From positions 1-31,631 of IMG/VR virus record IMGVR_UViG_3300035663_000065: a stretch of DNA of 31,631 nt; one strand, written 5' to 3'. The notes beneath the pieces are model-generated. The model was not told where the DNA came from. It made no database searches and saw only the letters and a list, made by a program, of their open reading frames with translations. This document shows positions 1 to 31,631 of this stretch, in pieces (position 1 is the first letter of the stretch; every line of letters starts with the position of its first letter). This DNA is from a virus. The position numbers and the translations under genes are program-made.

Positions 1-172
1 GCCCAGCAAATGCCGATAGCTCATCGAGTCCCATCGAGCCGAAGATTTTAGAAAACGTCCCTGAGAGCTTTTTCGTTTCGCTGCTAGTGTTGGCGATTTG
101 CTCGGCGACCTGCTCAAACGCAGGAGTAGCATCATCAACGCCTTCAAGAATTATTTGAATTGATTCAGCCAT
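1..172 (-). CDS. Tail tape measure protein, N-terminal part (cut by window edge)
   Basis: Only the first 57 codons are present and the frame runs open to the window edge. The start is the ATG at 172; it reads MAESIQIILEGVDDATPAF and continues with a polar helical stretch. The opening pattern of a short beta strand, then D-A-T-P-A-F, then an amphipathic helix is typical of the N-terminus of phage tape measure proteins, which set tail length and are threaded through the tail tube. Position supports this: it lies directly after the tail assembly chaperone and its frameshift extension, as gene H follows G/T in lambda. The ATG overlaps the end of the frameshift extension (TAA at 177-175). Most of the gene lies outside, so the assignment rests on context and the short N-terminus. 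Confidence 0.72.
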   Translation of the reverse strand, partial: MAESIQIILEGVDDATPAFEQVAEQIANTSSETKKLSGTFSKIFGSMGLDELSAFAG

Positions 173-174
173 GA

Positions 175-887
175 TTATCGTTCTCGTCTATACGCTTCGC
201 TCTCGGCTCTTGATTGCTCACTGCGAAACATCTCATACAAACTGACAAACCACGCTGATTGGTCTAGCACGCCGCCGCTAACTGGCGGGATGCCTTCTTT
301 CATTAAATCTGCAAGCCTGATTGCTCTCAGCAACTCTTTGCTGATTAGCCGCTTAGGACAACTCGTCAGCTCAAAAAATCCGGTCTGATTGCAATCATCG
401 CACCCGGCCTCATTGCACCTTGGACACGCGATAGAAACCGAACAGTTTATTGTCGGTTCGTCAACGCATTTTTTTCCTGTGCAATGCTTACACAGCAGCC
501 CCTGCCGGATTAGAGCTGCCGTTCTTAGTTTTTTTCGTCGTCCTTGCTAACGCTACCGCTTGCTAAAATTTTCCGAAACAATTCGCGAGCTTCACCAAAA
601 GTAAAAACATCTTTCAGCGAGTCCCGGCTGAACTCAATTTCTTTTTCTGTTTGTGGGTCTCGAAAGTTTTTCCATCCTGTAATTACGTTTGCCAATGCGT
701 CCGCAATGTAATCAAAGAACTCTTTTGAAGTTGTCTTTGGTGCAGAGTCCCAGACCTCGGCCAACTGCTCATGCTTTCGCATTGACAGAGCAACAATAAA
801 AATCGTCGGTCGCTGGTCTTCTGGTTTCTCCTCGTCGTAGTCTAAGTAAATTGGAAACCGATAGCCCGGCTCTAACGCTCGCCCCAT
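175..887 (-). CDS. Tail assembly chaperone, long form made by -1 frameshift (gpGT-like)
   Basis: This is a two-frame product. The first 120 residues come from the frame starting at ATG 887. At the heptamer at 534-528 the ribosome can slip back one base and continue from C528 for 117 more codons to TAA at 177-175, giving about 237 aa. The extension frame has no start of its own with a clear ribosome-binding site but is open throughout. It carries a DnaJ-like cysteine cluster (CKHCTGKKC, later CPRCNEAGCDDC), then a helical tail with a G-G-x-L-D-Q segment. In lambda the equivalent GT protein bridges tail tube subunits and the tape measure during assembly. The cysteines probably bind zinc (inference). 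The frame relation and the slippery site are read directly. Confidence 0.82.
494..534 (-). promoter_or_regulatory. Programmed -1 ribosomal frameshift signal
   Basis: Read on the minus strand, positions 534-528 are A AAA AAC in the zero frame, a perfect X XXY YYZ slippery heptamer directly before the zero-frame stop TAA. After a one-base slip the next codon is CTA, which opens the 117-codon extension. Seven bases further on, GGCAGC (520-515) can pair with GCTGCT (499-494), giving a six-pair stem including one G-U. That is the usual distance for a stimulatory structure. Tail assembly chaperone frameshifting is well established for lambda-like phages. Confidence 0.85.
525..887 (-). CDS. Tail assembly chaperone, short form (gpG-like)
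   Basis: A 120-aa cytoplasmic protein expected to coat the tape measure during tail assembly without entering the virion. I assign the role from position (between tail tube and tape measure) and from the frameshift site at its last codons. I do not recognise a diagnostic sequence motif. The protein is mostly helical in appearance, with conserved-looking hydrophobic and charged heptads and an acidic C-terminus ending in S-K-D-D-E-K-N. The ATG at 887 is preceded by GAGGCGAG, a good ribosome-binding site. The stop TAA (527-525) immediately follows the slippery heptamer, so the short form is the default product and the long form a minority product. Confidence 0.8.
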   Translation of the reverse strand: MGRALEPGYRFPIYLDYDEEKPEDQRPTIFIVALSMRKHEQLAEVWDSAPKTTSKEFFDYIADALANVITGWKNFRDPQTEKEIEFSRDSLKDVFTFGEARELFRKILASGSVSKDDEKN

Positions 888-909
888 TGTCTCGCCTCAA
901 CTATTAAAC

Positions 910-1845
910 CTAAGGTGCAGAAAAAACGATTGTCAGCTCATCGTTGCCAGCCGCCGCGCTGCGGTTGCACTGGAAGGAAATCGTATCCGTTACGATTCCG
1001 TTCCGGTCAGCCTCTTGCACATTTGTAATCTGAAACTTCGGAGCATTGATTGCAAACTTGTCTGTAGTGTTTTCAAGGTCAAACGCCAGCGCTCGCTCAG
1101 TATGGCTGAGCCAGTCGCCATAAGGATTCGCCTCAGATACAAGCGTAGATTCTGGGTCAATCGAGCCCACAACGTTTCGGTCTGTAATCATTGCCGCAGC
1201 ATACCCGCTATTGTCTGAGTTTGTCGCGCACTCGCGAAGGATAACCGTATTGCCTGCATCGACTTCAAGCCGAGCAAAGCAGGGCGACCAACTGCCGATG
1301 GTAAACGTCGCGTTTCCAACTCGCAGCGGCAGGGCTGTCGGATAGGTCGGAGCAAGAATTGCCAAGTCCGTTACATCAACCCAAACGCCAGTAAACGTCC
1401 ATTCAATAACGGCAATCTTTCCGGTCTCAAAAATCATCTTGAACGTCCCGGCACAGCCACGCATCAGCTTTCGCTTGCCGTCAATATAAGCCCCAAGCGT
1501 AAGGGTTTTCACATTAGTTCCCGGTGCTTCTGTCTTCGGGCTGAATGTACCTGTGCTGACGCTCCAGCCGCAGGCAGGCAGAAAGGTCGAAGCCCAGCCC
1601 GGTACGCCGCCAGCTCCGCTGCCGTAGACCTCAGTCTTGAACGTGCAGGTTCCGCCGCTCAGCTCGCGGATTGCCGTCATGCTTGAAAAGCTACCGTTGC
1701 CCATTCGAGGAGTCATCGTAATCGTCGGCTGCATCGTCAGGTCGAAAACATTAAACGCAGCGTCAGCACCGGCGAGAGTCTCAGCCGTTCCGCTAGTCGT
1801 TTCAATCTTTGCAGCAAGAACGTGCTTGCGTTTAATTAGTGGCAT
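910..1845 (-). CDS. Major tail tube protein (gpV-like)
   Basis: A 311-aa protein, long for a tail tube subunit but with the look of one: a basic start (MPLIKRKHVLAAKIETTSGT), many beta-strand-like alternations, and repeated G/T/S-rich turns. Tail tube proteins of this class polymerise as hexameric rings around the tape measure and form the channel for DNA. The start is ATG 1845 with a strong GGAGG 10 bases upstream, and it overlaps the end of the minor tail Z gene by 14 bases. The order Z, tube, G/GT, tape measure is that of lambda-like phages. The extra length could include an Ig-like or surface domain in the C-terminal third (inference). Confidence 0.75.
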   Translation of the reverse strand: MPLIKRKHVLAAKIETTSGTAETLAGADAAFNVFDLTMQPTITMTPRMGNGSFSSMTAIRELSGGTCTFKTEVYGSGAGGVPGWASTFLPACGWSVSTGTFSPKTEAPGTNVKTLTLGAYIDGKRKLMRGCAGTFKMIFETGKIAVIEWTFTGVWVDVTDLAILAPTYPTALPLRVGNATFTIGSWSPCFARLEVDAGNTVILRECATNSDNSGYAAAMITDRNVVGSIDPESTLVSEANPYGDWLSHTERALAFDLENTTDKFAINAPKFQITNVQEADRNGIVTDTISFQCNRSAAAGNDELTIVFSAP

Positions 1846-2467
1846 TTTCAGTCCCTCCGGTTTTTTTTAAGTGTTGGTCGATAAGGTAGCGAGCCTCAGA
1901 TTCTATTCGCCGCTCAAATGCGATTTGCAGTTTCAGCTTTGTTGGCTCAAGCATTTTGTTTCTTACAAAGGTTCCCCACGGAGAAACGCCAAACAAAGGA
2001 ATAATTGGCAAGTTGTCGTGTCGCTTTTTTTTGCCTTTATTTCGCCCTTTGTATTTCAGCGGCACTTCGACCGGCGATGCTCGCTTAAATACATGCCTGC
2101 CGAGTCGAGGAATCTCAGGACCAAACGCGCTCAGGGCCAGTGACCGCTTGCCGCCTTTTTCTATTTTGTAGGTCACGCCTTTTTTGGCCTGCTTGGCCCC
2201 AAAGTATTTAAGCGGAAATCTTCCCGATTTGTCCAGCTCGCTTATCGCTGAAGTATTGCCTCGCTTCTTTGAGCGCAAAACCTTCTTGAGGTCTTTTTTC
2301 TTTATGTTTACGCGACCTGTTATATCAGTGCTTATCAGAGTAACGCCTTGCTTGGCGACGCGCATCGAGGCGCGAGCAAATGCTTTTTCGATTCCGCCCG
2401 GTATATCGCGCAGGGCTTGCTCTAGCTCCTGAGCATGTTCTTCTCTGATTTTCATCGTTACGGCCAT
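1832..2467 (-). CDS. Minor tail protein Z-like (tail completion/connector)
   Basis: A 211-aa, very basic protein. The segment around residues 82-128 (SGRFPLKYFGAKQAKKGVTY, then GRHVFKR) closely matches the pattern I know from prophage minor tail protein Z. The N-terminal helical half (residues 1-75) is followed by this beta-rich part and a C-terminal helix. Lambda gpZ acts late in tail completion at the head-proximal end and is needed for correct DNA positioning in the tail. The start ATG 2467 lies 4 bases after the preceding stop. The gene overlaps the tail tube gene. The family call is from the motif; the role is from the family. Confidence 0.72.
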   Translation of the reverse strand: MAVTMKIREEHAQELEQALRDIPGGIEKAFARASMRVAKQGVTLISTDITGRVNIKKKDLKKVLRSKKRGNTSAISELDKSGRFPLKYFGAKQAKKGVTYKIEKGGKRSLALSAFGPEIPRLGRHVFKRASPVEVPLKYKGRNKGKKKRHDNLPIIPLFGVSPWGTFVRNKMLEPTKLKLQIAFERRIESEARYLIDQHLKKTGGTENATN

Positions 2468-2470
2468 CGC

Positions 2471-2959
2471 TCAGGTTCTCACCGTGTAAGGGTTTGTTTC
2501 ATCTGTGCGATAGATGACTGTAAACTCTAAACGAGCGCCGCCTATTTCTTCAGCATTAACGTTTGTAATTGTGTTGAAAACCGTATTGATTGCGAGCCCG
2601 TCCCAGTTGTGCCAGCTTGCAGCCGGGACCGTAATCGCCTTGACCATATCGCTTGCAAACTCATTGCAAAGCGCATCGAAGCTCATCGTATCGTCTTCGC
2701 TCGGCCTGATTTCTCCGAAGACAGTAAAAACTAAATCCCAAGCAATCGCTGGCGGATTGCCGGGATGGCTCATCGTTTCGTTATATGTGTTGGAAGTCTG
2801 CGTGATTGTGATTTGATAATCTTTCAGATTTCCATTCCAGATTTTTTCAGCACGAATTACAGTTCCAGCTACAGTCGTCTCATAACCGCTGCTTTGAGAA
2901 ATTAGCTGAAGCCGCTGCGAAACCTTCAGTGCGATTTGTTCACAGATTGCCGTAGCCAT
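2471..2959 (-). CDS. Tail terminator-like protein (gpU position)
   Basis: A 162-aa protein with an N-terminal helix (MATAICEQIALKVSQRL) followed by a mixed alpha/beta body, which is the layout of tail terminator and tail completion proteins that cap the tube and join it to the head. The motif evidence is limited. The assignment relies on size, the N-terminal helix and the position between the head closure gene and the Z-like gene. It follows the preceding gene by 2 bases, so translation is probably coupled. It could equally be described as a generic head-tail connector component. Confidence 0.55.
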   Translation of the reverse strand: MATAICEQIALKVSQRLQLISQSSGYETTVAGTVIRAEKIWNGNLKDYQITITQTSNTYNETMSHPGNPPAIAWDLVFTVFGEIRPSEDDTMSFDALCNEFASDMVKAITVPAASWHNWDGLAINTVFNTITNVNAEEIGGARLEFTVIYRTDETNPYTVRT

Positions 2960-2961
2960 TT

Positions 2962-3312
2962 TTACTTAACCGCCAACTGTAGCATGCCGTGGTCATTGTC
3001 CATAACGCGAACAATCGTGCAGGTCTTTTTCTGAGCGTCATTGACGCGAGCAGCAATCAAAATTTCGTCTCCGCCCGTATCAATTTCCTGAGCAGTAATG
3101 CCGCTTGTTGCCGAGTTGGCAACGTAGAGCATGAAAGACAAAGCGAGCATATTGCCTGCATCGTCCATCAACGCAGGCGGCTCCCTGTCGACGATGGCGA
3201 GAATCGTCCGAGAGCCGCCACTGCGAGGATGATAGACAACAGTCTCGGCAAACTCATCAGAAGACAAGAACACCGAGACCGCATCGCTGGCGATAGATTC
3301 GCGTAGCGTCAT
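2962..3312 (-). CDS. Head closure / head-tail joining protein (gpFII-like)
   Basis: A 116-aa protein beginning MTLRESIASDAVSVFLSSDE, with Y-H-P-R-S-G-G soon after. An N-terminal helix with a D-E-F-A-E-T-V-x-Y segment, followed by a beta barrel with a D-R-E-P-P motif, is characteristic of lambda FII-type head-tail joining proteins in many prophages. The protein would sit below the portal and stop DNA leakage after packaging. The start ATG 3312 is just after the stop of the 223-aa gene (3316) and the stop is 2 bases before the next start, so it belongs to the same translated string. Confidence 0.65.
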   Translation of the reverse strand: MTLRESIASDAVSVFLSSDEFAETVVYHPRSGGSRTILAIVDREPPALMDDAGNMLALSFMLYVANSATSGITAQEIDTGGDEILIAARVNDAQKKTCTIVRVMDNDHGMLQLAVK

Positions 3313-3315
3313 TGA

Positions 3316-3987
3316 TTAGACCCGTCGAGCCTTCCAGCCGATGTAATCGATTGAAACGCTGTCGGTGTTGTTGTCCGAGGTCTTTTGAATCTGGACGAAC
3401 GGCTGAAGCTGACCAGTAGCAGCGGCCATCGTGAACGTGGTTGCCGAAGCAACTCGGTCGCCGTCGATGAAAAAGCGAACGTCACTCTTGCCAGCAGCGA
3501 ACGAAATAACAAAACGGCGAAAGGTTGCGACCAGCGTTTGCCCAGTCGCCTTGTCATCGTTGTCGGTCGTACCGTCATCTGTTTCGATAAGTACCGCGTT
3601 TGAGCCGACTAGCTTAAACTGCACGTTGTTCGTAGTCGAGTCCGTATTGTCAGCACGATTTGATTGCAGGCCGAACGTTAGGGTTGTTGCCGAGTCCAGC
3701 GTAGCGACAGTCTTAACTCGAAATTCGACTTCAATCAGCGAGTCGATATCGAGCTGTAGTTTGTCGCCAAAGTCCAAGCAAACATTTTGAATCTCAGTTT
3801 GTGAGTCAAAAGCCAAAGTTACTACGCCGCCGTGAGCAGCCGCATCTTTGGTATAGGTTGGCGTACCGGCTGAGCTGGTGTCAGTAATCTTCCAGAGTCC
3901 CTCGCCGACAGTCGCGGCCAGAGTTGCGCCGCCAATAAAGTCGTCGCCTCCGTAGATAAAATCATGCAAAGGATAAGCGTTGAACAT
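3316..3987 (-). CDS. Putative capsid decoration or surface protein, jelly-roll-like
   Basis: A 223-aa protein with no motif that names it. It is rich in T, D, S, A and G with regular beta-strand spacing, and ends with a strand resembling the last strands of concanavalin/LamG folds (V-S-I-D-Y-I-G-W-K). It lies immediately downstream of the capsid gene, the place of the decoration protein (gpD) in lambda-like phages. A ConA-like cement or carbohydrate-binding head protein is the most economical reading. It is inferred from composition and location. The start ATG 3987 has GAGG about 9 bases upstream. Confidence 0.45.
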   Translation of the reverse strand: MFNAYPLHDFIYGGDDFIGGATLAATVGEGLWKITDTSSAGTPTYTKDAAAHGGVVTLAFDSQTEIQNVCLDFGDKLQLDIDSLIEVEFRVKTVATLDSATTLTFGLQSNRADNTDSTTNNVQFKLVGSNAVLIETDDGTTDNDDKATGQTLVATFRRFVISFAAGKSDVRFFIDGDRVASATTFTMAAATGQLQPFVQIQKTSDNNTDSVSIDYIGWKARRV

Positions 3988-8696: not shown

Positions 8697-8981
8697 TTAC
8701 AAGGTTTCGCCTTGATGCTCGCTGCCGCTTTCCTGATTTCTTTCCGCCTCAACGGAATTGCGAACCGTTACAGTCCAAGAGTTGCCGCAGAAATGGCATT
8801 TGATATATCGGACCTTGCCGAAGTCATGGGTAACGGTTCCGTAGATTCTGCTGTAGTTGGTATGCTCTGGCCTGTGCGACTGGCAGAGCGCGCAGGGCGG
8901 CGCGACAAACTGCCGAGGCTTTATCGGTATTGGGTCTTGCTGCGGCCTGCGAATGTCTTCTCGTCGATTCTTTCTGTTCAT
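8697..8981 (-). CDS. Small zinc-ribbon protein
   Basis: A 94-aa basic protein with two Cys pairs, C-A-L-C (around residues 31-34) and C-H-F-C (around 62-65), separated by about 28 residues. The second pair is followed by G-N-S-W-T-V, as in zinc ribbons. The start is ATG 8981, which overlaps the terminase stop as ATGA and is preferred over an ATG six codons upstream. The function is not evident: it could be a DNA-packaging accessory or a late transcription/translation factor like small Com-type zinc proteins. The fold is visible; the role is unknown. Confidence 0.6.
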   Translation of the reverse strand: MNRKNRREDIRRPQQDPIPIKPRQFVAPPCALCQSHRPEHTNYSRIYGTVTHDFGKVRYIKCHFCGNSWTVTVRNSVEAERNQESGSEHQGETL

Positions 8982-11152
8982 CTTCGCTGCGGAACCCATC
9001 CGCCCTCCCTTTGCTTAAATCGTTGACTGCCTGCAAACTGCGTCGATGGTCTTGGCTTCTCAGCCTGAACCGGCTGGCGTATCGTCGATTGAATCAGGCG
9101 ATGACCGTAGACTCCAGAAGCGGCCAGAGCGAGAGCCATCGCGTCGAGCCAGTGATTGTTCTTGTTAGTCTGAACCCATTTGCGAATCATTCCCTTGCCT
9201 TCGACAAACTGGTCGCGGCGTTCTTCGGCAACTATGTGATGAGAAAACGAAAGATGCTTTTTGGGGTCGCCCGATGAGAACAGGCTGAGCGAGCCATCGT
9301 TAAGCTGCTGCTGTTCGTTGTAAGTCTTTACCGAAAATCTTTCGTGAACCTGCTGCTTCCAGTGTTCTGTATTTACATGATAGAGCCAGAGCTGCTCGGC
9401 AGGCAGCAGACCGGCCCAGCTATTATCGAACAGTTTGCGAGTCGGCCCAGCCTGACCGGGAAAAAACTTGCTCGCTGAATATCCTTTGCTCGCTGCGAAC
9501 GGAGTCCCGCCGACCTGCCTGATGAAAGCATAAACGGCATCCGTGTAGTCGCCTGAGTCGATGAGGCAGAACGTTGGCGAGTTACTCGAAAGCATATCAG
9601 CACGCCAGTCTATCAAGCTCTTCAGCAGCGAGACCTGAACAGCCTGCGGCGTGACCTCGACGCTCATACCGGGCGTTTCCATAATGCCGTAATCGAGAAC
9701 GTGGCCGATAGCATTGCCGTGAACGTAGACCTTTGCCCAGTGCGAAAAGTATTTGCCAATGTCGAGCCCGACAAATATCTGACCGTCTGACTTCGGCAAC
9801 TCGTTCTGCTCAAGCCCGCTGATTCGGCTGGCGACCTTTCCAGCAGTCAGGCCGATAGTTTCAGCCGCCTCTTCCATGTCTGGGTCGTTCTGAAGCTCTG
9901 CATTGACTCGGCTCATGCCGAGGTCCGCGATGCGATTAAAAAACGCCTGCAAGGCATCGACCTCGATAGGATTGCCGTGCTTGCTGAACCGCTTAGCAAA
10001 CCTGTACGGGTTCGAGATAACAGCCCCCTCTCGCATCGCTTCTTCGTTTGTGAGATAGAACTGCGTAGCCATATAACCGTCTTTGTCACCGTCAGCCTGA
10101 GCCCTCTGACGAATAGCAATGTATTCCTGCCAGAGGTCGCTACGCTCAGGCCATTTCTCCAGCATCCCGTAACGGTCGCCCTCGAAAGCAGGCTTGAGCT
10201 TTCGCTCAGTCGCTCTGAATGAATAGCAGCGGCGATTCTGTATTGTCGTCAGGATTACTCGGCTCATCTGCTTGTCCGGCCCAGCCAGCAGAGCGATATC
10301 GCCGTCAATCATTTCTTCAATCTGCCAGTGCTGCGTTTCACTGTTGGCGACCTCATGGGTCTCAGGGTCATCGACAAGCGCGAAGTCTGGACGAACTCCG
10401 TTGAAATGTACGCCGCGAATCGCCGAGTCAAGCCCGAAGTAAGTCAGATAGCGACCGCCGTAAGGGGAGCCCGGTACATAAGGAAACCCGATTTCGTCCT
10501 GAGTCCAGATGATGCGAGTCTTCTCGCCTGCAACGTGCTGCTTCGCCGCTCGCTGAGGCGCTCCGTCCAGCTCAAGGACTGGAATACAGATTTCAGGGAA
10601 ATCGGCAATCAATAGCTCGTTGCTTGCGAACGTCCGCTGTATCTGCTTAAAAATCTTCTGAGCAGACTTGCGAGTCGCCGCGATAATAACCGGAAAACGA
10701 ACTCGACAGTCAAGCAAGATAGCGATAATCATCCAGAGAGCAATCTGCGTTTTGCCATCACCGCGAGGGGCCGCTATCGCTTTGTCGCCGCCTGTTTTGG
10801 CTCGCTCCCAGATAGCCCGAATCATTGCCCGATGATGAGTCGCAAATGGATTGTAGAAAATCTGCTTGCCGTATGTTTTGAGGAATCGCTCAGGGTCAGC
10901 AAGGCAGGCCCGGCGACGATTGATATCCGCCGGTGCTGGAATAAACACCTCAGCCGCCTTGCTCCTCATCGTCCGCTTGCGCTCGATATCGCTCGACTGC
11001 TGTTTCGTCGCGTCGCTCTGACCCATCAGCGCCGACATGATTTGCACCTGCTGGCTCTTGTCCAACGAGCCTAAAATCTGCGCCAATGCCGAGCTGCTGA
11101 GCGACCTCAAGAAATCGATTTCGGTCTGACTGTAAGGCGGCAGTATGTTCAT
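8978..11152 (-). CDS. Terminase large subunit
   Basis: A 724-aa packaging motor. The ATPase part has Walker A APRGDGKT (residues 128-135), Walker B ALVDDPE (258-264) and a coupling motif TTIQNR (302-307). The nuclease part has an RNase-H-like acidic set: D464 in VGLDIGKY, D532 in LIDSGD and D670 in NHWLDAMALA. It cuts concatemers and pumps DNA through the portal. The N-terminal 60 residues overlap the small subunit gene in another frame by 203 bases. Internal ATGs at 11035 (residue 40) or 10969 (residue 62) would shorten the overlap, and no strong ribosome-binding site decides between them. Confidence 0.9.
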   Translation of the reverse strand: MNILPPYSQTEIDFLRSLSSSALAQILGSLDKSQQVQIMSALMGQSDATKQQSSDIERKRTMRSKAAEVFIPAPADINRRRACLADPERFLKTYGKQIFYNPFATHHRAMIRAIWERAKTGGDKAIAAPRGDGKTQIALWMIIAILLDCRVRFPVIIAATRKSAQKIFKQIQRTFASNELLIADFPEICIPVLELDGAPQRAAKQHVAGEKTRIIWTQDEIGFPYVPGSPYGGRYLTYFGLDSAIRGVHFNGVRPDFALVDDPETHEVANSETQHWQIEEMIDGDIALLAGPDKQMSRVILTTIQNRRCYSFRATERKLKPAFEGDRYGMLEKWPERSDLWQEYIAIRQRAQADGDKDGYMATQFYLTNEEAMREGAVISNPYRFAKRFSKHGNPIEVDALQAFFNRIADLGMSRVNAELQNDPDMEEAAETIGLTAGKVASRISGLEQNELPKSDGQIFVGLDIGKYFSHWAKVYVHGNAIGHVLDYGIMETPGMSVEVTPQAVQVSLLKSLIDWRADMLSSNSPTFCLIDSGDYTDAVYAFIRQVGGTPFAASKGYSASKFFPGQAGPTRKLFDNSWAGLLPAEQLWLYHVNTEHWKQQVHERFSVKTYNEQQQLNDGSLSLFSSGDPKKHLSFSHHIVAEERRDQFVEGKGMIRKWVQTNKNNHWLDAMALALAASGVYGHRLIQSTIRQPVQAEKPRPSTQFAGSQRFKQREGGWVPQRR

Positions 11153-11339
11153 CTTTTTGGTTTTGTGCTTCGGCTGCTAGTATCGCCTTAAACGCCATCA
11201 CCTTTTCGCGAGGAGAACTTTTGACGTCCTCTAAAATTTGCATCATTCGCAGAATGCATCGCTCGCGATATGACGCCTGCGTAGGCCATCGTTGTTGTAG
11301 AACGCGAGCCATTAGCCGGTCGTCGTTTTGCTCCTGCAT
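10950..11339 (-). CDS. Putative terminase small subunit
   Basis: A 129-aa, helical, charged protein immediately before the large terminase. It contains ILEDVKSSPREKVMAFKAIL and later a D-R-N-R-F-L-E-V-A-Q-Q-L-G-I segment, a type of ending I associate with small terminase or terminase-adjacent proteins. It would recognise the packaging site and recruit the large subunit. A classical helix-turn-helix is not obvious. The start could be ATG 11339 (28-base overlap with the methyltransferase gene) or ATG 11312, which shares one base with the methyltransferase stop in TAATG. The C-terminal 67 residues are encoded over the terminase N-terminus. Confidence 0.6.
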   Translation of the reverse strand: MQEQNDDRLMARVLQQRWPTQASYRERCILRMMQILEDVKSSPREKVMAFKAILAAEAQNQKDEHTAALQSDRNRFLEVAQQLGIGADFRLVGQEPAGANHVGADGSERRDETAVERYRAQADDEEQGG

Positions 11340-12604
11340 AGCTCAGCTTTCTTGCCGGTGAATGTTTCCCACCGCTTTACAATCACGTCGCAATACTGCG
11401 GGCTAATTTCCATTCCGTAGCATTTGCGGCCTAGTTGCTCGGCGGCAATTAGCGTTGTGCCTGAACCAAGAAAAGGTTCATATACAATATCGCCAGACAA
11501 AGAAAAGTCTGAAATCATTCTTGCGGCTAAACCGACTGGAAATGCAGCTCTGTGCTCAACTGACTCTCCTGTAATTTGAGAGCCAGCACTTTTTATCTGC
11601 CAATAATTCCAACGGCAATCGTTATAAACTTGACTCGTTCTGTATTTCTCGCTATTCGACATTACAAAAACAAATTCGCATCGTCTGGAGTAAATGTTAA
11701 CCTGCGGCAGATTGATTGCGTGACATTTGTCCCAGATTATTGTTTCTTGAACCTTAAACGGATTTTTGTCGCAAAAAACAATTCTACCGTAATCGCAACG
11801 GCTTTTTGCATTATATGCAACGTTCCATGCAACAGCATTGGATTCTTTGTCTGCGAACTGAGCCATAACGCTTAAGATGTCAATGCAAAACTGAAAATAA
11901 TCTTCTTTGCTCAAATTATCGGAGCCTGCATCTTCGTACAACTTAACGCCTTTGGATGTTTGACCTCCTTTCGTATGGATAAAACCATCTGAATGTGAAT
12001 TGCCCTGATTGTAAGGAGGCGAAGTAGCTGCGAGCTGCCATAGATGATTTTGCATGAGGCGTTTAACGTCTTGATTGTTTGTCGAATCACCGCACAACAA
12101 ACGATGCTCATTAAGAATCCACAGGTCGCCCGGTTTCGTAATTGGCTCAACCGGTGGGGCCTGCGGTTCGTCCTCGATAATCTCTTTCGGTTCATCCGGC
12201 AAAACAATCGGCTCAAGCGAGTTCATCATCTGCTTGATTGCTTCGTTTTCAAATTCAATACCGTCAAGCAAATTCTCAAGTTTTGAATTATCTAAACCTG
12301 CCATCGCAGTCAGCGGGTCGAGAGTCGCGAGAATCTTATCCGCTTCCTCTTCGTTCACATCGAGAACCAGAACCGGCACAAGCTCGCCGCCAAGCGTTTC
12401 TGTCCTGAGATGACCATCGAGCAGCATCAGTGAGCCGTCTGGCATTTCGCGAGCGATACAGGCATCGGCGATACCGACCTCGGCCAGAACTCCTCGCAAA
12501 GCGTCAGCCTGCTCCTGAGGATGCGTTCGCCAGTTCTTTGGGTTTGGCCTGAGCTGGCTTGCTGGTACTCGGCGAAGCTCTTTAATTCTGTCTCGAATCT
12601 GCAT
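11312..12604 (-). CDS. ParB-domain DNA methyltransferase (beta-class, SPPY type)
   Basis: A 430-aa protein. Residues 10-100 form a ParB/sulfiredoxin-like nuclease domain (LRPNPKNWRTHP, LLDGHLRTE). Residues 158-425 are an amino-methyltransferase with catalytic motif IV TSPPY at 194-198, then the SAM-binding motif EPFLGSGTT at 376-384. Motif IV before motif I is the beta-class order. SPPY is commoner in N4-cytosine than N6-adenine enzymes, so cytosine N4 methylation is possible but unproven. No restriction enzyme gene is adjacent, so it probably acts as an orphan phage methylase. It is the first gene after the gene-free gap and precedes the terminases. The start ATG has a GGGGG-containing leader. 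Confidence 0.88.
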   Translation of the reverse strand: MQIRDRIKELRRVPASQLRPNPKNWRTHPQEQADALRGVLAEVGIADACIAREMPDGSLMLLDGHLRTETLGGELVPVLVLDVNEEEADKILATLDPLTAMAGLDNSKLENLLDGIEFENEAIKQMMNSLEPIVLPDEPKEIIEDEPQAPPVEPITKPGDLWILNEHRLLCGDSTNNQDVKRLMQNHLWQLAATSPPYNQGNSHSDGFIHTKGGQTSKGVKLYEDAGSDNLSKEDYFQFCIDILSVMAQFADKESNAVAWNVAYNAKSRCDYGRIVFCDKNPFKVQETIIWDKCHAINLPQVNIYSRRCEFVFVMSNSEKYRTSQVYNDCRWNYWQIKSAGSQITGESVEHRAAFPVGLAARMISDFSLSGDIVYEPFLGSGTTLIAAEQLGRKCYGMEISPQYCDVIVKRWETFTGKKAELCRSKTTTG

Positions 12605-20466: not shown

Positions 20467-21036
20467 CTAGCGACTCTTCTCGTCGTGCCAAGTATTTATT
20501 CTGATTTTCATTACCTCAAGGCTGCTTGCGATTTCCTGCCTCAGTCCGTTTGGCATCAGCAGCTCGCACGACTCAAAATAGATTTCACCCGGCTCGAAGT
20601 TGCCGGTAATAATCCAGACCTGAGATTGAGGCATCGCGGCCAGAGCGCGAAGTAGAATCGACTGACCTTGCGATATTTGCTCGCCCGGTCGCTTAAACTC
20701 CAGAAACAGAAAATGGCCGAATCGCTCGTAGACTCCATCGACGTTGCTCGGCAGTCCGCGAGGATTGCTTTTGATGATTCCTTTCAGGAAGCCAAAGTCG
20801 ATATGTTCGACCTTGCGCCGCATCGCCTGAACTGGCTCGGCAATTGCCTGCCTGTCCGGCCAGAGGTCAGCAGGCATTTTCTCATCGCCGATTTGCCGCT
20901 TCGTGTCAAAGTACGCCGCGCGAGTTATTCGCTTCGTCAGGTCAGCCGTATCGAACCAGTCTAAATCTTTGTTATTACCTTCGAGCATGATTGCCAGTCG
21001 CTCCTCGTATAGCTCGCGGATTTCCTGCTCAGTCAT
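20467..21036 (-). CDS. PD-(D/E)XK (VRR-NUC-like) nuclease
   Basis: 189 aa from ATG 21036, chosen because GAGAGG lies 7 bases upstream. A longer frame from 21144 overlaps the preceding gene with no good site. The C-terminal part has the nuclease core: N-V-D-G-V-Y, then L-F-L-E-F-K-R-P-G, then ISQGQSILLRAL, i.e. D...E-x-K...Q, as in VRR-NUC and related phage endonucleases. The N-terminal half is helical and charged. Likely roles are Holliday-junction or flap processing in phage recombination or packaging, or degradation of host DNA. The catalytic motif is seen; the substrate is inference. Confidence 0.65.
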   Translation of the reverse strand: MTEQEIRELYEERLAIMLEGNNKDLDWFDTADLTKRITRAAYFDTKRQIGDEKMPADLWPDRQAIAEPVQAMRRKVEHIDFGFLKGIIKSNPRGLPSNVDGVYERFGHFLFLEFKRPGEQISQGQSILLRALAAMPQSQVWIITGNFEPGEIYFESCELLMPNGLRQEIASSLEVMKIRINTWHDEKSR

Positions 21037-21110
21037 TTCTGTGCCTCTCGCCAGTCGACCACGCTCATTCGCTAACCTCCGCGCCAAATAGGATGTTGTT
21101 ATCGAAAAAA

Positions 21111-21419
21111 TTATTGTCGAGCCTCGACTGTTGCCGTAATCCATCCATGAGATACAGCACGACCTGAGGCCGTGACTGTCAAAGTAGGAAATGCGTCAGT
21201 CAACAAGTCAGCCATTCCTTCCACCGACACCGGAACAAGAAGCGCATCGTTAATCACTTTGTTTATTTTTAGAACATCATAAAACTGCCTGCCATCTGTT
21301 TCAAATACAAACTTGATAGTCATTTCGTCTTTAGCAATGACGCACGTACCCATAAACTCGTCGGTTTCATATCGCCACGTTTGTTTATGTTTTGTTTCAA
21401 TTTCAGGTTGCATATTCAT
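21111..21419 (-). CDS. Hypothetical protein following the DpdA-like gene
   Basis: A 102-aa protein with a beta-rich look (F-V-F-E-T-D-G-R-Q-F-Y-D-V-L) and no recognised motif. It overlaps the end of the DpdA-like gene by 17 bases (stop at 21403), so its translation is coupled to it and it might act with it. A second ATG at 21413 could also start it. The function is unknown. Confidence 0.5.
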   Translation of the reverse strand: MNMQPEIETKHKQTWRYETDEFMGTCVIAKDEMTIKFVFETDGRQFYDVLKINKVINDALLVPVSVEGMADLLTDAFPTLTVTASGRAVSHGWITATVEARQ

Positions 21420-22068: not shown

Positions 22069-22431
22069 TCAAAATACTTTCTCCGTTACCTGCCAACCGC
22101 CGCCGTTTTTCTTTGCAATCTTTTTCAGCTCGATGCTACGAAAGGTCGCCCAGCTATTCGACTCTGCGGCAACTTTTATTTTCACTTTGCTGTCGTCTTG
22201 CCCCGGTGCTTTCCAAGAGCCTTTGACTTCGTGAAACTCAATTTCGCCGCTAACTAGAAAAACCATGAAGTCCGGCGTGTAGTAAGTATTATCAGCCAGC
22301 CGCAGCTTTACTCGCTCAAAAAAATACTGGTCAACATCATCCCGCAGCCTGAGCATCGTCTCCCATGCTTCTTCGTATTCTGTCTTGCTGCCTTTTTCCC
22401 GCCGCTTGAAATTAAACTTTCTGCGATGCAA
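22069..22431 (-). CDS. Small PD-(D/E)XK endonuclease (DUF1064-like)
   Basis: A 120-aa protein. After a basic N-terminus (MHRRKFNFKRREKGSKTE) a helix precedes the core: Y-Y-T-P-D-F-M-V-F (D54), then E-I-E-F-H-E-V-K-G (E69 to K71, E-x-K form), and a final beta/helix part. This is the layout of DUF1064 and related phage resolvase-like nucleases, which are often found in the replication/recombination segment and serve as Holliday-junction resolvase substitutes. It overlaps the preceding gene by 20 bases. Confidence 0.7.
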   Translation of the reverse strand: MHRRKFNFKRREKGSKTEYEEAWETMLRLRDDVDQYFFERVKLRLADNTYYTPDFMVFLVSGEIEFHEVKGSWKAPGQDDSKVKIKVAAESNSWATFRSIELKKIAKKNGGGWQVTEKVF

Positions 22432-26589: not shown

Positions 26590-27438
26590 CTACTTCTCCT
26601 CCAAAATTTTCATTGCCTCAGTCACCTGCCTGCTCGCAGCGATACGCTCGCTGTTCACATACGGGCAGGTCGACCAGTAACCACACCACGATTCGCTACA
26701 CCACCAAGAGCCAACCGCAGCAGGAGGAAAGAGCCCTGCGTCGATTGTCTTTGAGACTATCGCGACTCGCTTAGCCAGAATCGGCAGGTCGCTCTTGTCT
26801 CGTTTCGCTTCGATTAACTGCCGCCGCACTGGGTTGCGAGTTGTCGGCTCAATCAGAATATCGAGCTTGACCGTAGACTCGCCATCTGGATTGACGCTCG
26901 CAGCGTAGACCGTCAACTGTGTCGAGACCTCAGCATCGGCAGGGCTCATCGAGCGGCCTGACGTTTTGAAATCAACCACATCGCCGCCAGTCGTTACAAG
27001 GTCGATGACTCCAACCAAGTCGTGCGAGATAGCCGGAAGCTCCAGCCGAAATTGTTTTTCAACTTCGGCAGGCTGATAGTCTGGAGCCTGCTGCATCGCG
27101 TGACCTGCGGCCATCAGTGCTACGAGGTCTTTCGTCTTGCCGACTGACTGCTCGGTCTCGTCCCTCTGAAGCTGATAACCATCGTGTTTGAGCTTAGCTT
27201 CGTAGCTCGCGACTGCCGCATCGATAATCTCAGTCGTCGGCAAGTCTTCGTGCGAATCAATCTTCTGCCTGAAGTTATGCTCCGCTCCGCTGTGAACTGC
27301 TGAGCCCTTGAGCATCGCCAGTTTCGGCGGAATGATTTCTCGCTCGATGTACCTGCGCCGCCAGCTCTCAGGACATTTTGCAAACGTTTCCATTTGCGAT
27401 GCCGAAAGGTGCTGTCGCTTTTTCTCCTGCTCACTCAT
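26590..27438 (-). CDS. RecB/Cas4-like exonuclease with probable Fe-S cluster
   Basis: 282 aa from ATG 27438, which overlaps the preceding stop by 8 bases. The protein has the PD-(D/E)XK exonuclease layout: H49 in G-S-A-V-H-S-G, D146 in VGVIDLVT, D156-F-K158 in VVDFKTSG, and Q174/Y178 downstream. C22 (in F-A-K-C-P-E-S-W) and three C-terminal Cys, C247, C252 and C258 (around W-W-C-S-E-S-W-C-G-Y-W-S-T-C), fit the four-cysteine iron-sulfur cluster of AddB/Cas4-type nucleases. It would resect double-stranded ends for the annealing protein next to it. Confidence 0.82.
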   Translation of the reverse strand: MSEQEKKRQHLSASQMETFAKCPESWRRRYIEREIIPPKLAMLKGSAVHSGAEHNFRQKIDSHEDLPTTEIIDAAVASYEAKLKHDGYQLQRDETEQSVGKTKDLVALMAAGHAMQQAPDYQPAEVEKQFRLELPAISHDLVGVIDLVTTGGDVVDFKTSGRSMSPADAEVSTQLTVYAASVNPDGESTVKLDILIEPTTRNPVRRQLIEAKRDKSDLPILAKRVAIVSKTIDAGLFPPAAVGSWWCSESWCGYWSTCPYVNSERIAASRQVTEAMKILEEK

Positions 27439-27712
27439 CGTCTGTTTCTCCGCTGTGCATTTCGATAACCTTTCCAAGAATCGAGCCGATGCCAATCAGC
27501 CCGAACAGAGCCGCCAGTGCCGCCTGAGTATCTCGGACTGCCATTGCCTCGGCCCTTGCCTTATCCAGACTCAGAAACAGATTGACTACTCGGTCAAGTG
27601 CTTCATTTCCCTTGTCATCATCGCTCAGCGCCTTTTCGACAATCTCGATGCCGAGCATTTCGAGCTGGTCGAAGTTGCTGCTAAACAGTGCGGTCGCTTC
27701 GGCGAACTTCAT
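27431..27712 (-). CDS. Hypothetical protein with hydrophobic segment
   Basis: A 93-aa protein with an acidic C-terminus (S-G-E-T-D-D-E). The C-terminal half contains a glycine-rich hydrophobic run (A-A-L-A-A-L-F-G-L-I-G-I-G-S-I-L-G). No signal peptide is present. The function was not recognised. It overlaps both neighbours (32 bases upstream, 8 bases downstream), so it is translated with the CsrA-like and nuclease genes. Confidence 0.5.
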   Translation of the reverse strand: MKFAEATALFSSNFDQLEMLGIEIVEKALSDDDKGNEALDRVVNLFLSLDKARAEAMAVRDTQAALAALFGLIGIGSILGKVIEMHSGETDDE

Positions 27713-28131: not shown

Positions 28132-28181
28132 TTTTCGGTCTCCTGTGTGTGTGATTCTCATCCGTGCGAAGCTATACGATT

Positions 28182-28208
28182 CCGAGCAGGGTACGCCTCC
28201 CTGCCCGG
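28182..28208 (-). other. Stem-loop after the DUF2201-like gene
   Basis: A ten-pair stem (28182-28191 with 28199-28208, one G-U) with a seven-base loop, starting 16 bases after the stop codon at 28226-28224. No T run follows, so it is a poor intrinsic terminator and may be an RNA-stability or factor-dependent element. Confidence 0.55.
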
Positions 28209-28223
28209 TATCGAGCAGCCTCA

Positions 28224-29555
28224 TCAACTGAAGCTCGCGATTCTTACTGTCTTGCCGATTGGGCTTTGTTCATAGCTTCCCGGTGGCTGAACCGTCACGC
28301 AGTCGAGCGAGTACCGGCTCGGCCATCGCCCTTCTGAGTCGGTAAACAGGATTACCCCGTCAACGTCTGTCGATTCGACCTCCGATAGCACTGAGCGAAA
28401 GTCTGTGCCGCCTCCGCCCTGAGCCGCAATCGCGACCTCCTCGCCGCTGCTGCGATTCCACTCGTCGCGGCCAGTTACTGCCGTGTCGTGATAGTAAATA
28501 TCAATTTCGCGAATCTCAGGAATCGCCTCGACCAGTTCGCGAGCCATCGATTGCCAGTGGCTGAAATAGCAGATGCAGGAGCCGCTCACGTCGAGGACTA
28601 GAGCCAGACGGAACCCGCTGACCTTGCGGCGGGCTGGCCGGTAGACTCCCTGAGCAATTGAGCGCCGGCTCGGCCTGCTCCAGTCTGCGACTGATTCTCC
28701 GCTTGCCCTCGATGCGACCAGTTCAATGACCACATCCTGCCAGCGACAATCGCTTGCGACGATTAACTCTCCGCTGAGCGACTGCGAGCCGCTGCTTGTC
28801 CCTGCTTGATGCCGAAACGTTTCCGGCGATTTAATCTTCCCCTGCTCGGCTGCGTCCTCGATTGCCTGAGCGACTTCCTCGGCTAGTTCTTCAGGGTCGT
28901 CCTGACCAAGCACTTCAGGAGCGAACTTTTTCGCCAGCGAGCCGGGACAGTGTACGCCATCAGTTACAGAGCCGGGCTGACCGTCAGACTGCTCTCCCGG
29001 CTGATTGCCGTCCTGAGGCTCTGGCTGACCGTCTGGCGAGCTTTCCCCCTGCTGCTCGTCCTGAGACCCGCCCTTCTGCTTGTCGTCGCTCTGGCTCGAT
29101 TCTGGCTTATCCTGCTGCGGCTTGTCTTTTGGCTGCTCGCTGCTCGCTTCGTGCTGGTAGTATTCTTCCCAGCTCAGGCCATCGCTGAGACCGAGTTGAT
29201 TCGGCCAGCATCCATCGGGCGGGAGTTTGTAACCGGCCCTAACGACGAGCGGATTGATTTCGCGGTCCATCGACTTGTTCGCCCTGTCGTGGTCGAGCCA
29301 GCTGCCATCTGCAAATCGCTCATTGTGCCGGAAGCGAACGTGGCAGACCTCATGGACGAGCAGTCCGCAAATCTGGTCGAGGGTCAGAGTCTCGATGTAG
29401 TCTGGATTAACCAGCAGGACGATTCCGTCAGTCGCGGCGGTGCTGACCTGCTTTGTCTCGACGAGCCTCAGGCATCGTATCGCACAGGCATCGGCGACGA
29501 TTGCCGGGTCGGTGCTCATCAGCATTTTGGTAAGGGCGATTTCGGCTTTGTTCAC
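28224..29555 (-). CDS. Metallopeptidase-VWA protein (DUF2201-like), MoxR partner
   Basis: A 443-aa protein starting at GTG 29555, with AAGGAG upstream. The N-terminal metallopeptidase-like domain has HEVCH (H68, E69, H72) in L-L-V-H-E-V-C-H-V-R-F-R-H. A Q/E/D/S/P-rich linker spans about residues 135-205. The C-terminal VWA domain has the metal-binding pattern D322-V-S-G-S, then T384-D385 in GGGGTDF, and D406 in F-T-D-S-E-G. This architecture is known from DUF2201 proteins, which pair with MoxR ATPases. Such pairs act as chaperones for protein maturation or in conflict systems, but the target here is unknown. Confidence 0.82.
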   Translation of the reverse strand: MNKAEIALTKMLMSTDPAIVADACAIRCLRLVETKQVSTAATDGIVLLVNPDYIETLTLDQICGLLVHEVCHVRFRHNERFADGSWLDHDRANKSMDREINPLVVRAGYKLPPDGCWPNQLGLSDGLSWEEYYQHEASSEQPKDKPQQDKPESSQSDDKQKGGSQDEQQGESSPDGQPEPQDGNQPGEQSDGQPGSVTDGVHCPGSLAKKFAPEVLGQDDPEELAEEVAQAIEDAAEQGKIKSPETFRHQAGTSSGSQSLSGELIVASDCRWQDVVIELVASRASGESVADWSRPSRRSIAQGVYRPARRKVSGFRLALVLDVSGSCICYFSHWQSMARELVEAIPEIREIDIYYHDTAVTGRDEWNRSSGEEVAIAAQGGGGTDFRSVLSEVESTDVDGVILFTDSEGRWPSRYSLDCVTVQPPGSYEQSPIGKTVRIASFS

Positions 29556-29607
29556 GTTTGATTCTCCTTGCGTTGTCTGGCTCGCGGTCTTCGCTTGCCT
29601 GTCCTAG

Positions 29608-29636
29608 ATTATTATCGGGATTGCGAAACTATTCAA
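29608..29636 (-). promoter_or_regulatory. Candidate promoter of the DUF2201-like gene
   Basis: TTGAAT (29636-29631) and AATAAT (29613-29608) are spaced 17 bases, close to a sigma-70-type pair. The flanking TCCCCTATT and C-G-A-T-A sequences recur upstream of the 54-aa gene. The first base of transcription would be about 29600, some 45 bases before the GTG start. Confidence 0.5.
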
Positions 29637-29660
29637 TAGGGGAAATCCAGAAAAAATCAG

Positions 29661-29693
29661 GAGAAAAAAGAGCCCCGTTTCCAAGGCTCTTTT
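29661..29693 (-). terminator. Intrinsic terminator after the MoxR gene
   Basis: The minus strand reads AAAAGAGCC-TTGGAAACGG-GGCTCTTTT followed by more T. The stem is six GC/AT pairs extended by A-T pairs (29669-29674 with 29685-29690). It closes the MoxR transcription unit just before the promoter of the next gene. Confidence 0.85.
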
Positions 29694-29708
29694 CCCCCTG
29701 CTGGCCGG

Positions 29709-30686
29709 TTACCGGCTGGCGACGATTGCCGCTGCGTGTCGCTTGACGAGCTTGCTGAACTCTTTTTCTTTGAGCAAGCTCGGCTGCTGCTTGGCGACTG
29801 CCTTGAGAAACTGCACTTGATAAGTCCCGTCCATCCCATCGACGAGCCGCATGACCGAATCATCCTGAAGAATCCAGCGAGCTTTAGCCACGGCTGGCAG
29901 TAGCTCGACCAGTTTGCTCATCATTGCCGGGCTGGCTGGCAGGCTGGCGGTCCCGGCGAGAATCGCGTCGATGCTCGGAAGCTGGACGTTGGCTCGTCGC
30001 CATCGGCAGAACGATGCGGCTGCATCAGGTCCGATGATGCCTGCTACGGTCTCCTGCTCTGGCTCGTATGGCAGGAGCCGCGAGAGCCGAGCCCAGTTGC
30101 GAGGAGTCGGCTGATTGAAATCCTGCTTCGCGTCCCACTTGCTGAACATCGCCGGGTTCGATTCGAGGAAAGCCAGCAGGCCAGCATCGGCGAAACTCTG
30201 CTCTTGATACCAGCCCCGCCATTCGGCGAAGTCTGGCTCGATTGTGATGACGATACATCGCTCTCGCAGTGCCGAGCTGAGTCGCGAACATCCGGCTCGG
30301 TCGCTGACCAGATTGCCGGTCGCCATCAGGACCGTTCCCTCTGGCAACTTGTAGTCGCCAATCGCTCCGCCGAGAAACAGCTTGAGCAGCGGACTGGTCA
30401 ACTCCATCGGAGCTTGAGTAATCTCATCGACGTTGAGCAGGCAAGCAGACTCCGGCCAGAAGTTCGGCACGTTCCAGCGAGTGCGACCATTCTCGACAGT
30501 CGGAATTCCGCGAAAGTCTACTGCTTCAAATTCGGCTGGCCTGACCTCGACATATGGCAGGCTTAACTCCTGAGCGAGGATATAGCCGACCGTTGTCTTG
30601 CCGATACCCGGCGAGCCGAGCAGGAGGACAGGCAGACCAGCGGCGGCGGCTTTCTTAACTTCAGCGATTGCGGTAGTGATGTTCAT
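29709..30686 (-). CDS. MoxR-type AAA+ ATPase
   Basis: A 325-aa protein. Walker A is GSPGIGKT (residues 24-31), Walker B L-L-N-V-D-E (83-88), sensor 1 M-A-T-G-N (121-125), and the arginine finger region is L-R-E-R-C (140-144). MoxR ATPases act with VWA-domain partners as chaperones in protein assembly or maturation, and the DUF2201-like gene downstream is the expected partner. The start ATG 30686 has a weak GGAA-containing leader within a repeated CAAACGCA sequence. It is separated from the partner by a terminator and promoter, so the pair can be expressed at different levels. Confidence 0.85.
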   Translation of the reverse strand: MNITTAIAEVKKAAAAGLPVLLLGSPGIGKTTVGYILAQELSLPYVEVRPAEFEAVDFRGIPTVENGRTRWNVPNFWPESACLLNVDEITQAPMELTSPLLKLFLGGAIGDYKLPEGTVLMATGNLVSDRAGCSRLSSALRERCIVITIEPDFAEWRGWYQEQSFADAGLLAFLESNPAMFSKWDAKQDFNQPTPRNWARLSRLLPYEPEQETVAGIIGPDAAASFCRWRRANVQLPSIDAILAGTASLPASPAMMSKLVELLPAVAKARWILQDDSVMRLVDGMDGTYQVQFLKAVAKQQPSLLKEKEFSKLVKRHAAAIVASR

Positions 30687-30719
30687 TGCGTTTGTTCCTT
30701 GCGTTTGTGATTGTGAGTC

Positions 30720-30761
30720 CCTGCGACGATGCAGGCCGTCGAGCCCCGTTGCCGAGGCTCT
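30720..30761 (-). other. Two hairpins in the MoxR leader
   Basis: GAGCC/GGCTC (30741-30745 with 30756-30760) and CCTGC/GCAGG (30720-30735) form two stems between the 54-aa gene and the MoxR start. The first is nearly the same sequence as the terminator stem at 29670-29690 but lacks the T run. It could be an attenuator or a decayed terminator. Confidence 0.5.
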
Positions 30762-30776
30762 CAGGTCTGGACCGTG

Positions 30777-30941
30777 TTACTCTGCTGCAATTCGCTCAAG
30801 TCGCTCAAAGGTTAAGCCGTTCCAAATTCCGCGAAAACTGATTCCGGCTTTAGTTACAAATTCGATTTCGACTGAGATGATTCCTTGGCCTGAGCAGATA
30901 AGAGCGTTTGCAGATTCGATTGCTTGTGAGAGAGTAGCCAT
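30777..30941 (-). CDS. Small hypothetical protein
   Basis: 54 aa from ATG 30941, placed after a strong AAGGAG. A longer frame upstream runs through the leader and terminator and is rejected. It reads MATLSQAIESANALI, then a beta-like part (I-S-V-E-I-E-F-V-T-K-A-G-I-S-F-R) and an L-E-R-I-A-A-E end. The function is unknown. It is the first gene of the unit that includes the MoxR ATPase. Confidence 0.5.
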   Translation of the reverse strand: MATLSQAIESANALICSGQGIISVEIEFVTKAGISFRGIWNGLTFERLERIAAE

Positions 30942-30993
30942 TTTTAATTTCTCCTTGCGTTTGTTTCGGTCGCGACTTGCTCCCGATGGAATA

Positions 30994-31022
30994 AATATCG
31001 TCGCAACAGCGAAGAAAGTAAA
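30994..31022 (-). promoter_or_regulatory. Candidate promoter of the 54-aa gene
   Basis: TTTACT (31022-31017) and GATATT (30999-30994) are spaced 17 bases. The segment aligns with the candidate promoter at 29608-29636 (shared TCCCCTATT, T-T-C-G-C, and C-G-A-T-A elements), which argues that both are real control regions. The -35 and -10 matches themselves are modest. Confidence 0.42.
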
Positions 31023-31055
31023 TAGGGGATTGGTCGTTTCAGGGAAAATAGTTGA

Positions 31056-31090
31056 AAAGAAACAGAAACCCCGCAAAACGCAGGGTTTCT
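31056..31090 (-). terminator. Intrinsic terminator after the partial gene
   Basis: The minus strand carries AGAAACCCTGC-GTTTT-GCGGGGTTTCT with one mismatch, then TTTC runs. The stem uses 31064-31074 with 31080-31090. It lies between the stop of the partial gene (31108) and the next promoter. Confidence 0.72.
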
Positions 31091-31107
31091 TGCTGGGGAA
31101 AGAATTC

Positions 31108-31631
31108 TTAGTTGGCCGTGGTCAGGATTGCCAGAGCCATCGCCGAGTCGATTTCTGAGCCGATTTCCCCTGCCAGATTGAGCAGACCTCGGAAGCTCGC
31201 GTCGATTCCTGCTGCCTCGGCTTTGACCGCATCGAGTTCAGCCAGCAGTTCTTCCCGTTTGCGGCTGGCTGTCTGCCGAACGTTCTTACTGGAGTCGCTC
31301 GCGGCGAGCTTCGCATCCTGAGCAGCTATCGAGGCGAGCAGTCGCTCGTACTTCGCTCGCAGTTCGACGGCTGCATTATCGGCCACGGCTGCGGCGGTCT
31401 CACTGTCAGCCGGGCAGTTGGCTCGAAAGAAGACCATCCCAAGCGACTCGAACTTCGCGGCGACCTCAGCCCAGCGGTCCATCCGCACAGTCGGCAAGTA
31501 ATAGATTCGGGCGTTGTCCCGCAGCTTGTAGCCGCCGACCTGCTCGACAATCTTTTCCAGCCCGATTCCTACGCTCGCTCCCTGCACTTGACCACGATAC
31601 CGAGTCGCGTCGATATGCTCTGCATCTTGAG
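31108..31631 (-). CDS. Partial gene, helical phage protein (5' end outside window)
   Basis: The frame is open to the window edge, so the true start lies outside; at least 173 residues are present. An internal GTG at 31587 is not needed as a start because the upstream codons remain open. A beta-rich part (V-G-G-Y-K-L-R-D-N-A-R-I-Y-Y-L-P, then W-A-E-V-A-A-K-F-E) is followed by a long helical region and a C-terminal helix (L-N-L-A-G-E-I-G-S-E-I-D-S-A). The layout recalls DUF6744-like phage proteins, but I cannot confirm this. The gene ends at a terminator. Confidence 0.6.
   Translation of the reverse strand, partial: QDAEHIDATRYRGQVQGASVGIGLEKIVEQVGGYKLRDNARIYYLPTVRMDRWAEVAAKFESLGMVFFRANCPADSETAAAVADNAAVELRAKYERLLASIAAQDAKLAASDSSKNVRQTASRKREELLAELDAVKAEAAGIDASFRGLLNLAGEIGSEIDSAMALAILTTAN

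Follow-up and report, generated by a model that had tools for sequence, protein, structure and literature searches.

What removes every copy of a tetranucleotide from a phage genome, and what keeps it out? The question is raised by the virus record IMGVR_UViG_3300035663_000065, a phage contig of 31,631 bases (positions 1-31631, no strand; hereafter the window) that is free of GATC. Our analysis points to a gene on its minus strand, g20467 (20467-21144), which encodes a candidate nuclease: a phage-encoded GATC-specific enzyme, to which the phage is immune through purging the site from its own genome, is the best-supported cause of the absence, and we regard it as probable. The gene family and GATC absence co-occur almost perfectly across several phage groups with hardly any other proteins in common, and two relatives without the gene, the contig G411 and the named phage MW202825, do contain GATC.

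Absence of GATC and its maintenance by selection

The window has no GATC against 159.7 expected from its own tri- and dinucleotides, which ranks it first in depletion among the 256 tetranucleotides. The program count bears out the first-pass annotation, which had noted zero GATC in the 31.6 kb from the letters alone and had proposed such a count; its side remark that CTAG, GTAC and GGCC are present is likewise correct (34/34.5, 49/64.5 and 105/154; here and below, x/y for a DNA word denotes observed/expected counts). The second most depleted tetranucleotide is GCGC (73/177), and GCGC avoidance is also seen in most high-GC phages with ParB-methylase genes, despite their differing methylase domains. 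Shuffling of synonymous codons in 27 open reading frames (ORFs; 23,625 bases) gives a mean of 93 GATC (200 shuffles, range 67-113) against the observed zero. The ORFs contain 1,981 positions one step from GATC, and at 468 of these a silent change is enough.

The same absence is found throughout the clade of the window. GATC-free relatives, at 75-100% nucleotide identity, comprise L001-L004, L009, L015, L016, L019 and the 40.7-kb contig G001. Summed over nine contigs of this clade (the window, G001, L002, L003, L004, L009, L015, L016 and L019; ~121 kb with genes that are partly the same, L001 being omitted as nearly identical to the window), there are 0 GATC against ~582 expected. An intermediate state is seen in L013 (portal identity 72%), with GATC at 30/63. 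The absence is not a library artefact, because GATC-free and GATC-bearing contigs come from the same metagenomes: 3300042444 yielded both L015 (0 GATC) and L013 (30 GATC), and 3300037508 both L001 (0 GATC) and L024 (11 GATC).

Selection was assessed by re-dealing real substitutions at random among sites that match in base and codon position. The 1,288 substitutions between the window and G001 (95% identical) created 0 GATC, as against 34.6 for the shuffled ones (300 shuffles, range 19-50). The comparisons with L009, L019, L004 and L003 likewise gave 0, against 26.1, 17.0, 17.1 and 12.0 respectively, and the real substitutions against the more distant L010 (contig G411) created 89. Substitutions within the clade never make GATC; hence, new sites are removed by selection. 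This confirms phage restriction-site avoidance, with the site far below expectation and kept there by selection, and strongly supports the earlier claim of long selection on one site, a selection that is ongoing.

A candidate nuclease gene missing from a GATC-normal relative

The relative G411 (36,169 bases) has a normal GATC content (430/366). It is otherwise similar to the window: the large terminase subunit (TerL; 8978-11152 in the window, minus strand; PHROG 38, PF20454) is 59% and the portal protein 69% identical, and homologues of 24 of the 39 window genes tested are present, in the same order except for the pair g29709 and g31108. A profile of the g20467 family finds no relative on G411, while the same profile finds the gene in the window and in G001. 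The aligned parts of the G411 homologues of g20102 and g22069 lie ~120 bp apart; in the window these two genes enclose the block that includes g20467, so this block is missing from G411. Two further nucleases of the window were set aside as the cause, since both are present in this GATC-normal relative: the Cas4/RecB-like PD-(D/E)XK nuclease g26590 (26590-27495, minus strand; PF12705, Cas4), with a 59% homologue, and the Holliday-junction-resolvase-like nuclease g22069 (22069-22431, minus strand; PHROG 190), with a 53% homologue.

Co-occurrence of the nuclease family and GATC absence

A relative of g20467 (44% over 73 residues) is encoded by the named phage MW202753 (Manatee Spring), in whose 35.6-kb genome GATC stands at 0/97. 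The closest named relative of this phage by TerL (79.5%), MW202825, shows no family member and has GATC at 91/145. MW202753 (L434) further encodes an ArdC-like antirestriction protein, and it carries a RusA resolvase besides the family member.

Additional relatives were found with an alignment of window- and MW202753-type proteins; we used the best 80 of 91, one of which (L435) is G001, leaving 79 new carriers represented by parts of contigs up to ~20 kb. These 79 virus contigs hold 2 GATC in total against 2,433 expected; the observed/expected ratio (o/e) is below 0.1 in 78, and the remaining contig has 1 against 9.9 expected. The 82 carriers (the 79 contigs, the window, G001 and MW202753) form 37 nucleotide clusters. 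With one contig per cluster pooled, GATC is at 2/1,354, or 0.0015 of expectation, and the next tetranucleotide, GGCC, at 0.44. Among clusters with an expectation of at least 9, zero GATC is seen in 33 of 35 carriers versus 15 of 95 non-carriers (Fisher p 6e-17, uncorrected for phage kinship); clusters below that expectation were dropped, as were contigs of the window clade from the non-carrier set. The non-carrier background leans GATC-poor, as many of its contigs came from relatives of GATC-poor phages. Nucleotide clusters were used because by shared proteins the non-carriers collapse almost wholly into one group.

Carriers grouped by shared proteins fall into five groups if at least two proteins must be shared and seven if at least three, and they span a GC content of 0.38-0.56. 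Across six carrier groups, considering ORFs of at least 90 aa on the stretches examined, no protein family other than the nuclease is found in four or more, and one is found in three. Nor is a partner methylase common to at least four of the six on these partial contigs; different methylases could serve different phages. The family profile found no member outside the carriers in the other loci examined, and the named-phage relatives of two other carrier groups were too distant for a paired comparison. On this distribution we lean slightly towards a mobile family of small phage GATC nucleases that lack a protecting methylase, in which every lineage keeping the nuclease has purged GATC.

Motif and predicted fold of the candidate nuclease

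Counted from its first ATG, g20467 encodes 225 aa, with the candidate nuclease in the C-terminal half; what makes it a candidate is the occurrence of its family on 79 further contigs almost devoid of GATC, its absence from G411 and its PD-(D/E)XK-like predicted fold. In the alignment A3, nine residues are invariant in 47 of 47 members (window numbering): M108, N134, D136, E149, K151, E155, G160, Q161 and W219. D136 (codon at 20737-20739, minus strand here and for the following), a presumed metal-binding aspartate, forms with E149 and K151 (codons E149-F150-K151 at 20692-20700) the D...ExK signature of the PD-(D/E)XK catalytic motif; Q161 (20662-20664) is placed at the start of the next helix (159-170). 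As M108 is invariant, translation may in fact begin at 20823, which would reduce the protein to the conserved nuclease domain of 118 aa (20467-20823).

A structural model of the 117-aa member from L452 has a predicted local distance difference test score (pLDDT) of 80.8, compared with 68.6 for the full window protein; ten-residue blocks of the former score 86-96 from residue 31 on, and residues 1-25 score below 50. The predicted order of elements, strand-strand(ExK)-helix-strand, is that of a restriction-endonuclease-like core fold. The best fold matches are the Hjc Holliday-junction resolvases (Z 8.0-8.9, 98 residues at 3.0-3.1 Å). Both of the highest-ranking viral models bear the name of the VRR-NUC family (PF08774), at 37-39% identity and E 1.3e-9 and 7.3e-9, and comparison with the VRR-NUC structure 4qbn gives Z 5.3-5.5. 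Pfam returned no family for the g20467 protein up to E 10, and hence no DpnII, MutH, DpnI or VRR-NUC match, and none for the MW202753 protein up to E 1. Padloc and NCBIfam scans of g20467 gave no match, a sequence search of the PDB with the A3 profile no credible match, and a Foldseek search of the PDB with the full-length model no match at E <= 0.001. The predicted fold speaks for a nuclease and says nothing on its sequence specificity.

A swappable modification cassette and the phage methylase

The window also encodes a DNA methyltransferase (11312-12604, minus strand) that combines a ParB-like part with an N6_N4_Mtase domain (PF01555, 2.2e-30) bearing a TSPPY motif. Its ParB-like N-terminal part (12299-12604, minus strand; delineated by blastn against G001, L002 and L003, by protein alignment and by ParB-like PHROGs) anchors a swappable DNA-modification cassette, located between it and the putative small terminase subunit (10950-11339, minus strand; named by position only), that is, within 10950-12604. 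The alignments place one breakpoint in the ParB-like protein, near residue 98, and the other in the small terminase, at about residue 58. The first ~58 residues of the latter vary with the cassette, and packaging specificity and modification may thus be coupled. The cassette holds the N6_N4 methylase in the window, L001 and L004 (which includes just its C-terminal 60 residues), two Mom proteins each in L002 and L003 (PF25680, E 1.7e-40 or better), and an ABC-ATPase/GNAT protein in G001. In the GATC-normal G411, a 225-aa protein without a family match occupies this position (L010 6493-7170).

Could this methylase itself target GATC and so drive its avoidance? Relatives of its catalytic domain, some of them close, are found on many GATC-poor phages, and two other strongly GATC-poor lineages are instructive here. 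In contigs with the window-type methylase, GATC stands at 0/200 (four contigs) in one and 6/85 in the other; with another methylase, at 6/184 and 108/578; with no methylase found in at least 3 kb upstream, at 94/784 and 298/1234; and where the methylase could not be assessed, at 36/245 and 54/409. Thus, GATC is lowest with the methylase in both lineages, yet strongly depleted without the window-type enzyme too, at 0.03-0.24 of expectation in contigs that have a different methylase or in which none was found upstream. L031, moreover, has nearly the same target-recognition region as the window methylase and yet a normal GATC content (19/20). Within the clade of the window, all of the contigs named above are free of GATC, be their cassette of the methylase, Mom or ABC-GNAT type. 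As close relatives have Mom or ABC-GNAT genes where the window has its methylase and are still GATC-free, the methylase was rejected as the cause, and we consider a role for it highly improbable.

Host restriction, mismatch repair or a phage nuclease

The main rival that we see as possible is host restriction, under which enzymes of the DpnII/MboI/Sau3AI type, of the DpnI type or of both would have attacked these phages, which would have survived through loss of the site; the nuclease family would then simply mark phages of such hosts. There are precedents in the literature: GATC absence in phage K is linked to Sau3A (PMC6532042); GATC is absent from HF1-group haloviruses under host pressure (PMC7230728); and in phages of hosts with GATC-specific Type IIM enzymes, all 46 are depleted, with 45 of 46 below 0.8 (PMC6286503). 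Species comprising DpnI-like as well as DpnII-like strains have also been described (PMC4687349), a situation in which only loss of GATC is safe. Coliphages with a DNA hydroxymethylase are reported to avoid few sites (2.4% vs 55.8%; PMC6286503). The purge of GATC in the window clade despite its modification genes fits a pressure that those modifications do not relieve, coming from either side.

The two GATC-poor lineages discussed above also favour host restriction: they have no family member on the stretches examined, and some of their contigs have no GATC at all (0/200 in four). Their depletion is, however, mainly partial (0.00-0.24 when pooled by subset, versus 0.0015 in carriers), and the carriers belong to several groups over a wide GC range, most with only the nuclease family in common. 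In the lineage of L029 (L255-L332), with no family member on the stretches examined, GATC is near zero in most loci whose TerL is at least 83% identical to that of L029, and 26 loci at 73-77% TerL identity have pooled GATC at 1.07 of expectation (2,155/2,011; single loci 0.31-1.40).

The search for host enzymes that the first-pass annotation had suggested was run on Planctomycetota, the one candidate phylum sampled. Relatives of the ParB-like N-terminal part are mostly in genomes of this phylum. TerL matches occur in 63 of 392 of them, at only ~28-36% identity; portal relatives are absent from the genome contigs scanned, and g18287 relatives from 294 genomes in a search that had no positive control. 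Three Synechococcus phages with normal GATC are among the best named portal matches (31-34% identity). DpnII matches are found in 5 of 392 genomes (also G007) and DpnI matches over the cut-off in 2 of 294: such enzymes do exist in the phylum but are rare. Our GATC sample of it comprised 60 stretches, mostly from genomes with TerL matches and hence not random, of which 5 that read as N were omitted; o/e is below 0.25 in 3 of 55, and most are near 1. That some of these genomes are themselves GATC-poor, such as G020 (L333-L337; 2/69) and G280 (L388; 8/96), is consistent with host restriction. Low values are also seen in G032 (L405; 9/46) and in G157 (L376; 10/47), which has a DpnII match. In G013 (L424, L427), a member of Planctomycetia with GATC at 0.47, a DpnI-like gene lies in two frame-different overlapping pieces, as if frameshifted. 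Taken together, we view host restriction as a possible but rather unlikely account. The selection on one site proposed by the first-pass annotation stands; its host enzyme of the MboI/DpnII/Sau3AI kind, uncommon in the phylum sampled, is a possible cause, and the stronger correlate is a nuclease gene of the phage itself, which lay outside that first reading.

A further proposal, also raised earlier for the window, invokes methyl-directed mismatch repair, which the phages would either evade or be harmed by. It has been put forward for phiX174, which has no GATC and in which added sites lower the mutation rate (PMC5014478). Mismatch repair leaves the link with the nuclease gene unexplained. It is also unlikely as a general cause, since few of the sampled Planctomycetota encode MutH-type proteins (8 of 294 genomes over the cut-off). 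We give it even less credence than a role for the phage methylase.

On the explanation that we favour, the small PD-(D/E)XK endonuclease of g20467 would cleave or nick DNA at GATC, probably in the host chromosome, in the DNA of competing phages or in both. With no matching methylase and every GATC removed from the phage genome, this would amount to restriction without modification. The purge may have followed gain of the gene, or the gene may have been retained only by phages already free of GATC; either order would require a GATC-directed enzyme. What we infer is the cleavage itself, its site, which we read from the absence of GATC in the carriers, the methylation state that it needs and its purpose.

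Several points weigh against this explanation. The nearest folds, at a modest Z near 8, are those of Holliday-junction resolvases, enzymes that ordinarily serve in recombination. As 15 of 95 non-carrier clusters are GATC-free, host pressure alone can purge the site. MW202753 is also without GGCC (0/80), which MW202825 has (64/138), so that the nuclease is not the only difference between the two, and the MW202825 record carries the mark UNVERIFIED_CONTAM. If one protein in common is taken as enough, all carriers join into a single group, and the grouping and most gene absences are based on partial contigs. A search of plasmids with one family member gave no match. Lastly, CCWGG is the lowest 5-mer in carriers (0.12-0.14 of expectation), and o/e is below 0.1 for GGCC in 12 and for CGCG in 16 of the 37 clusters. 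This partial depletion suggests that the carriers also meet host restriction; the three words may bear the marks of other nucleases or of host enzymes.

Relation to known systems and implications

The window phage shares with phage K and the HF1-group haloviruses the full loss of GATC from a double-stranded DNA phage genome. For those phages the pressure is ascribed to the host, whereas the best correlate in the window phage is its own nuclease gene. The likewise GATC-free phiX174 differs in having a 5.4-kb single-stranded genome and a Dam+/MutH+ host, and in being explained via mismatch repair (PMC5014478). With DpnII and Sau3AI/MutH, Type II enzymes of the PD-(D/E)XK class, g20467 has in common the D...ExK motif and, presumably, the GATC site. 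It is unlike DpnII, MutH and DpnI in its lack of a Pfam match, its size of ~118 aa and the lack of a methylase family common to carriers on the stretches examined. Its best predicted-fold matches lie with Hjc/RecU resolvases and VRR-NUC proteins, though the Pfam VRR-NUC model does not match it even at E 10. An ordinary resolvase activity would not account for the absence of GATC, and the carrier MW202753 has RusA besides.

Phages that attack other DNA while sparing their own are known. T4, with endonuclease II and its modified cytosine, and the chlorella viruses, with their restriction enzymes, protect themselves by base modification or methylation; the window phage would do so by having no site. 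In the literature, within the partial coverage of our search, nothing on point turned up on a phage nuclease with its own site missing, or on GATC together with phage endonucleases or VRR-NUC; novelty is accordingly unproven.

Missing restriction sites in phages are usually taken as the footprint of host enzymes. If the explanation favoured here is true, GATC absence would be not only an escape from host restriction: it would give the phage immunity to a weapon of its own, aimed at the host chromosome and at rival phages, and this restriction without modification would be a simple way of telling self from non-self. Some published cases of site avoidance may then share the same cause, and other such enzymes could be found by screening for gene families in which every carrier is missing a given word. 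The nuclease family itself can be tested as a source of small, new nucleases specific for GATC.

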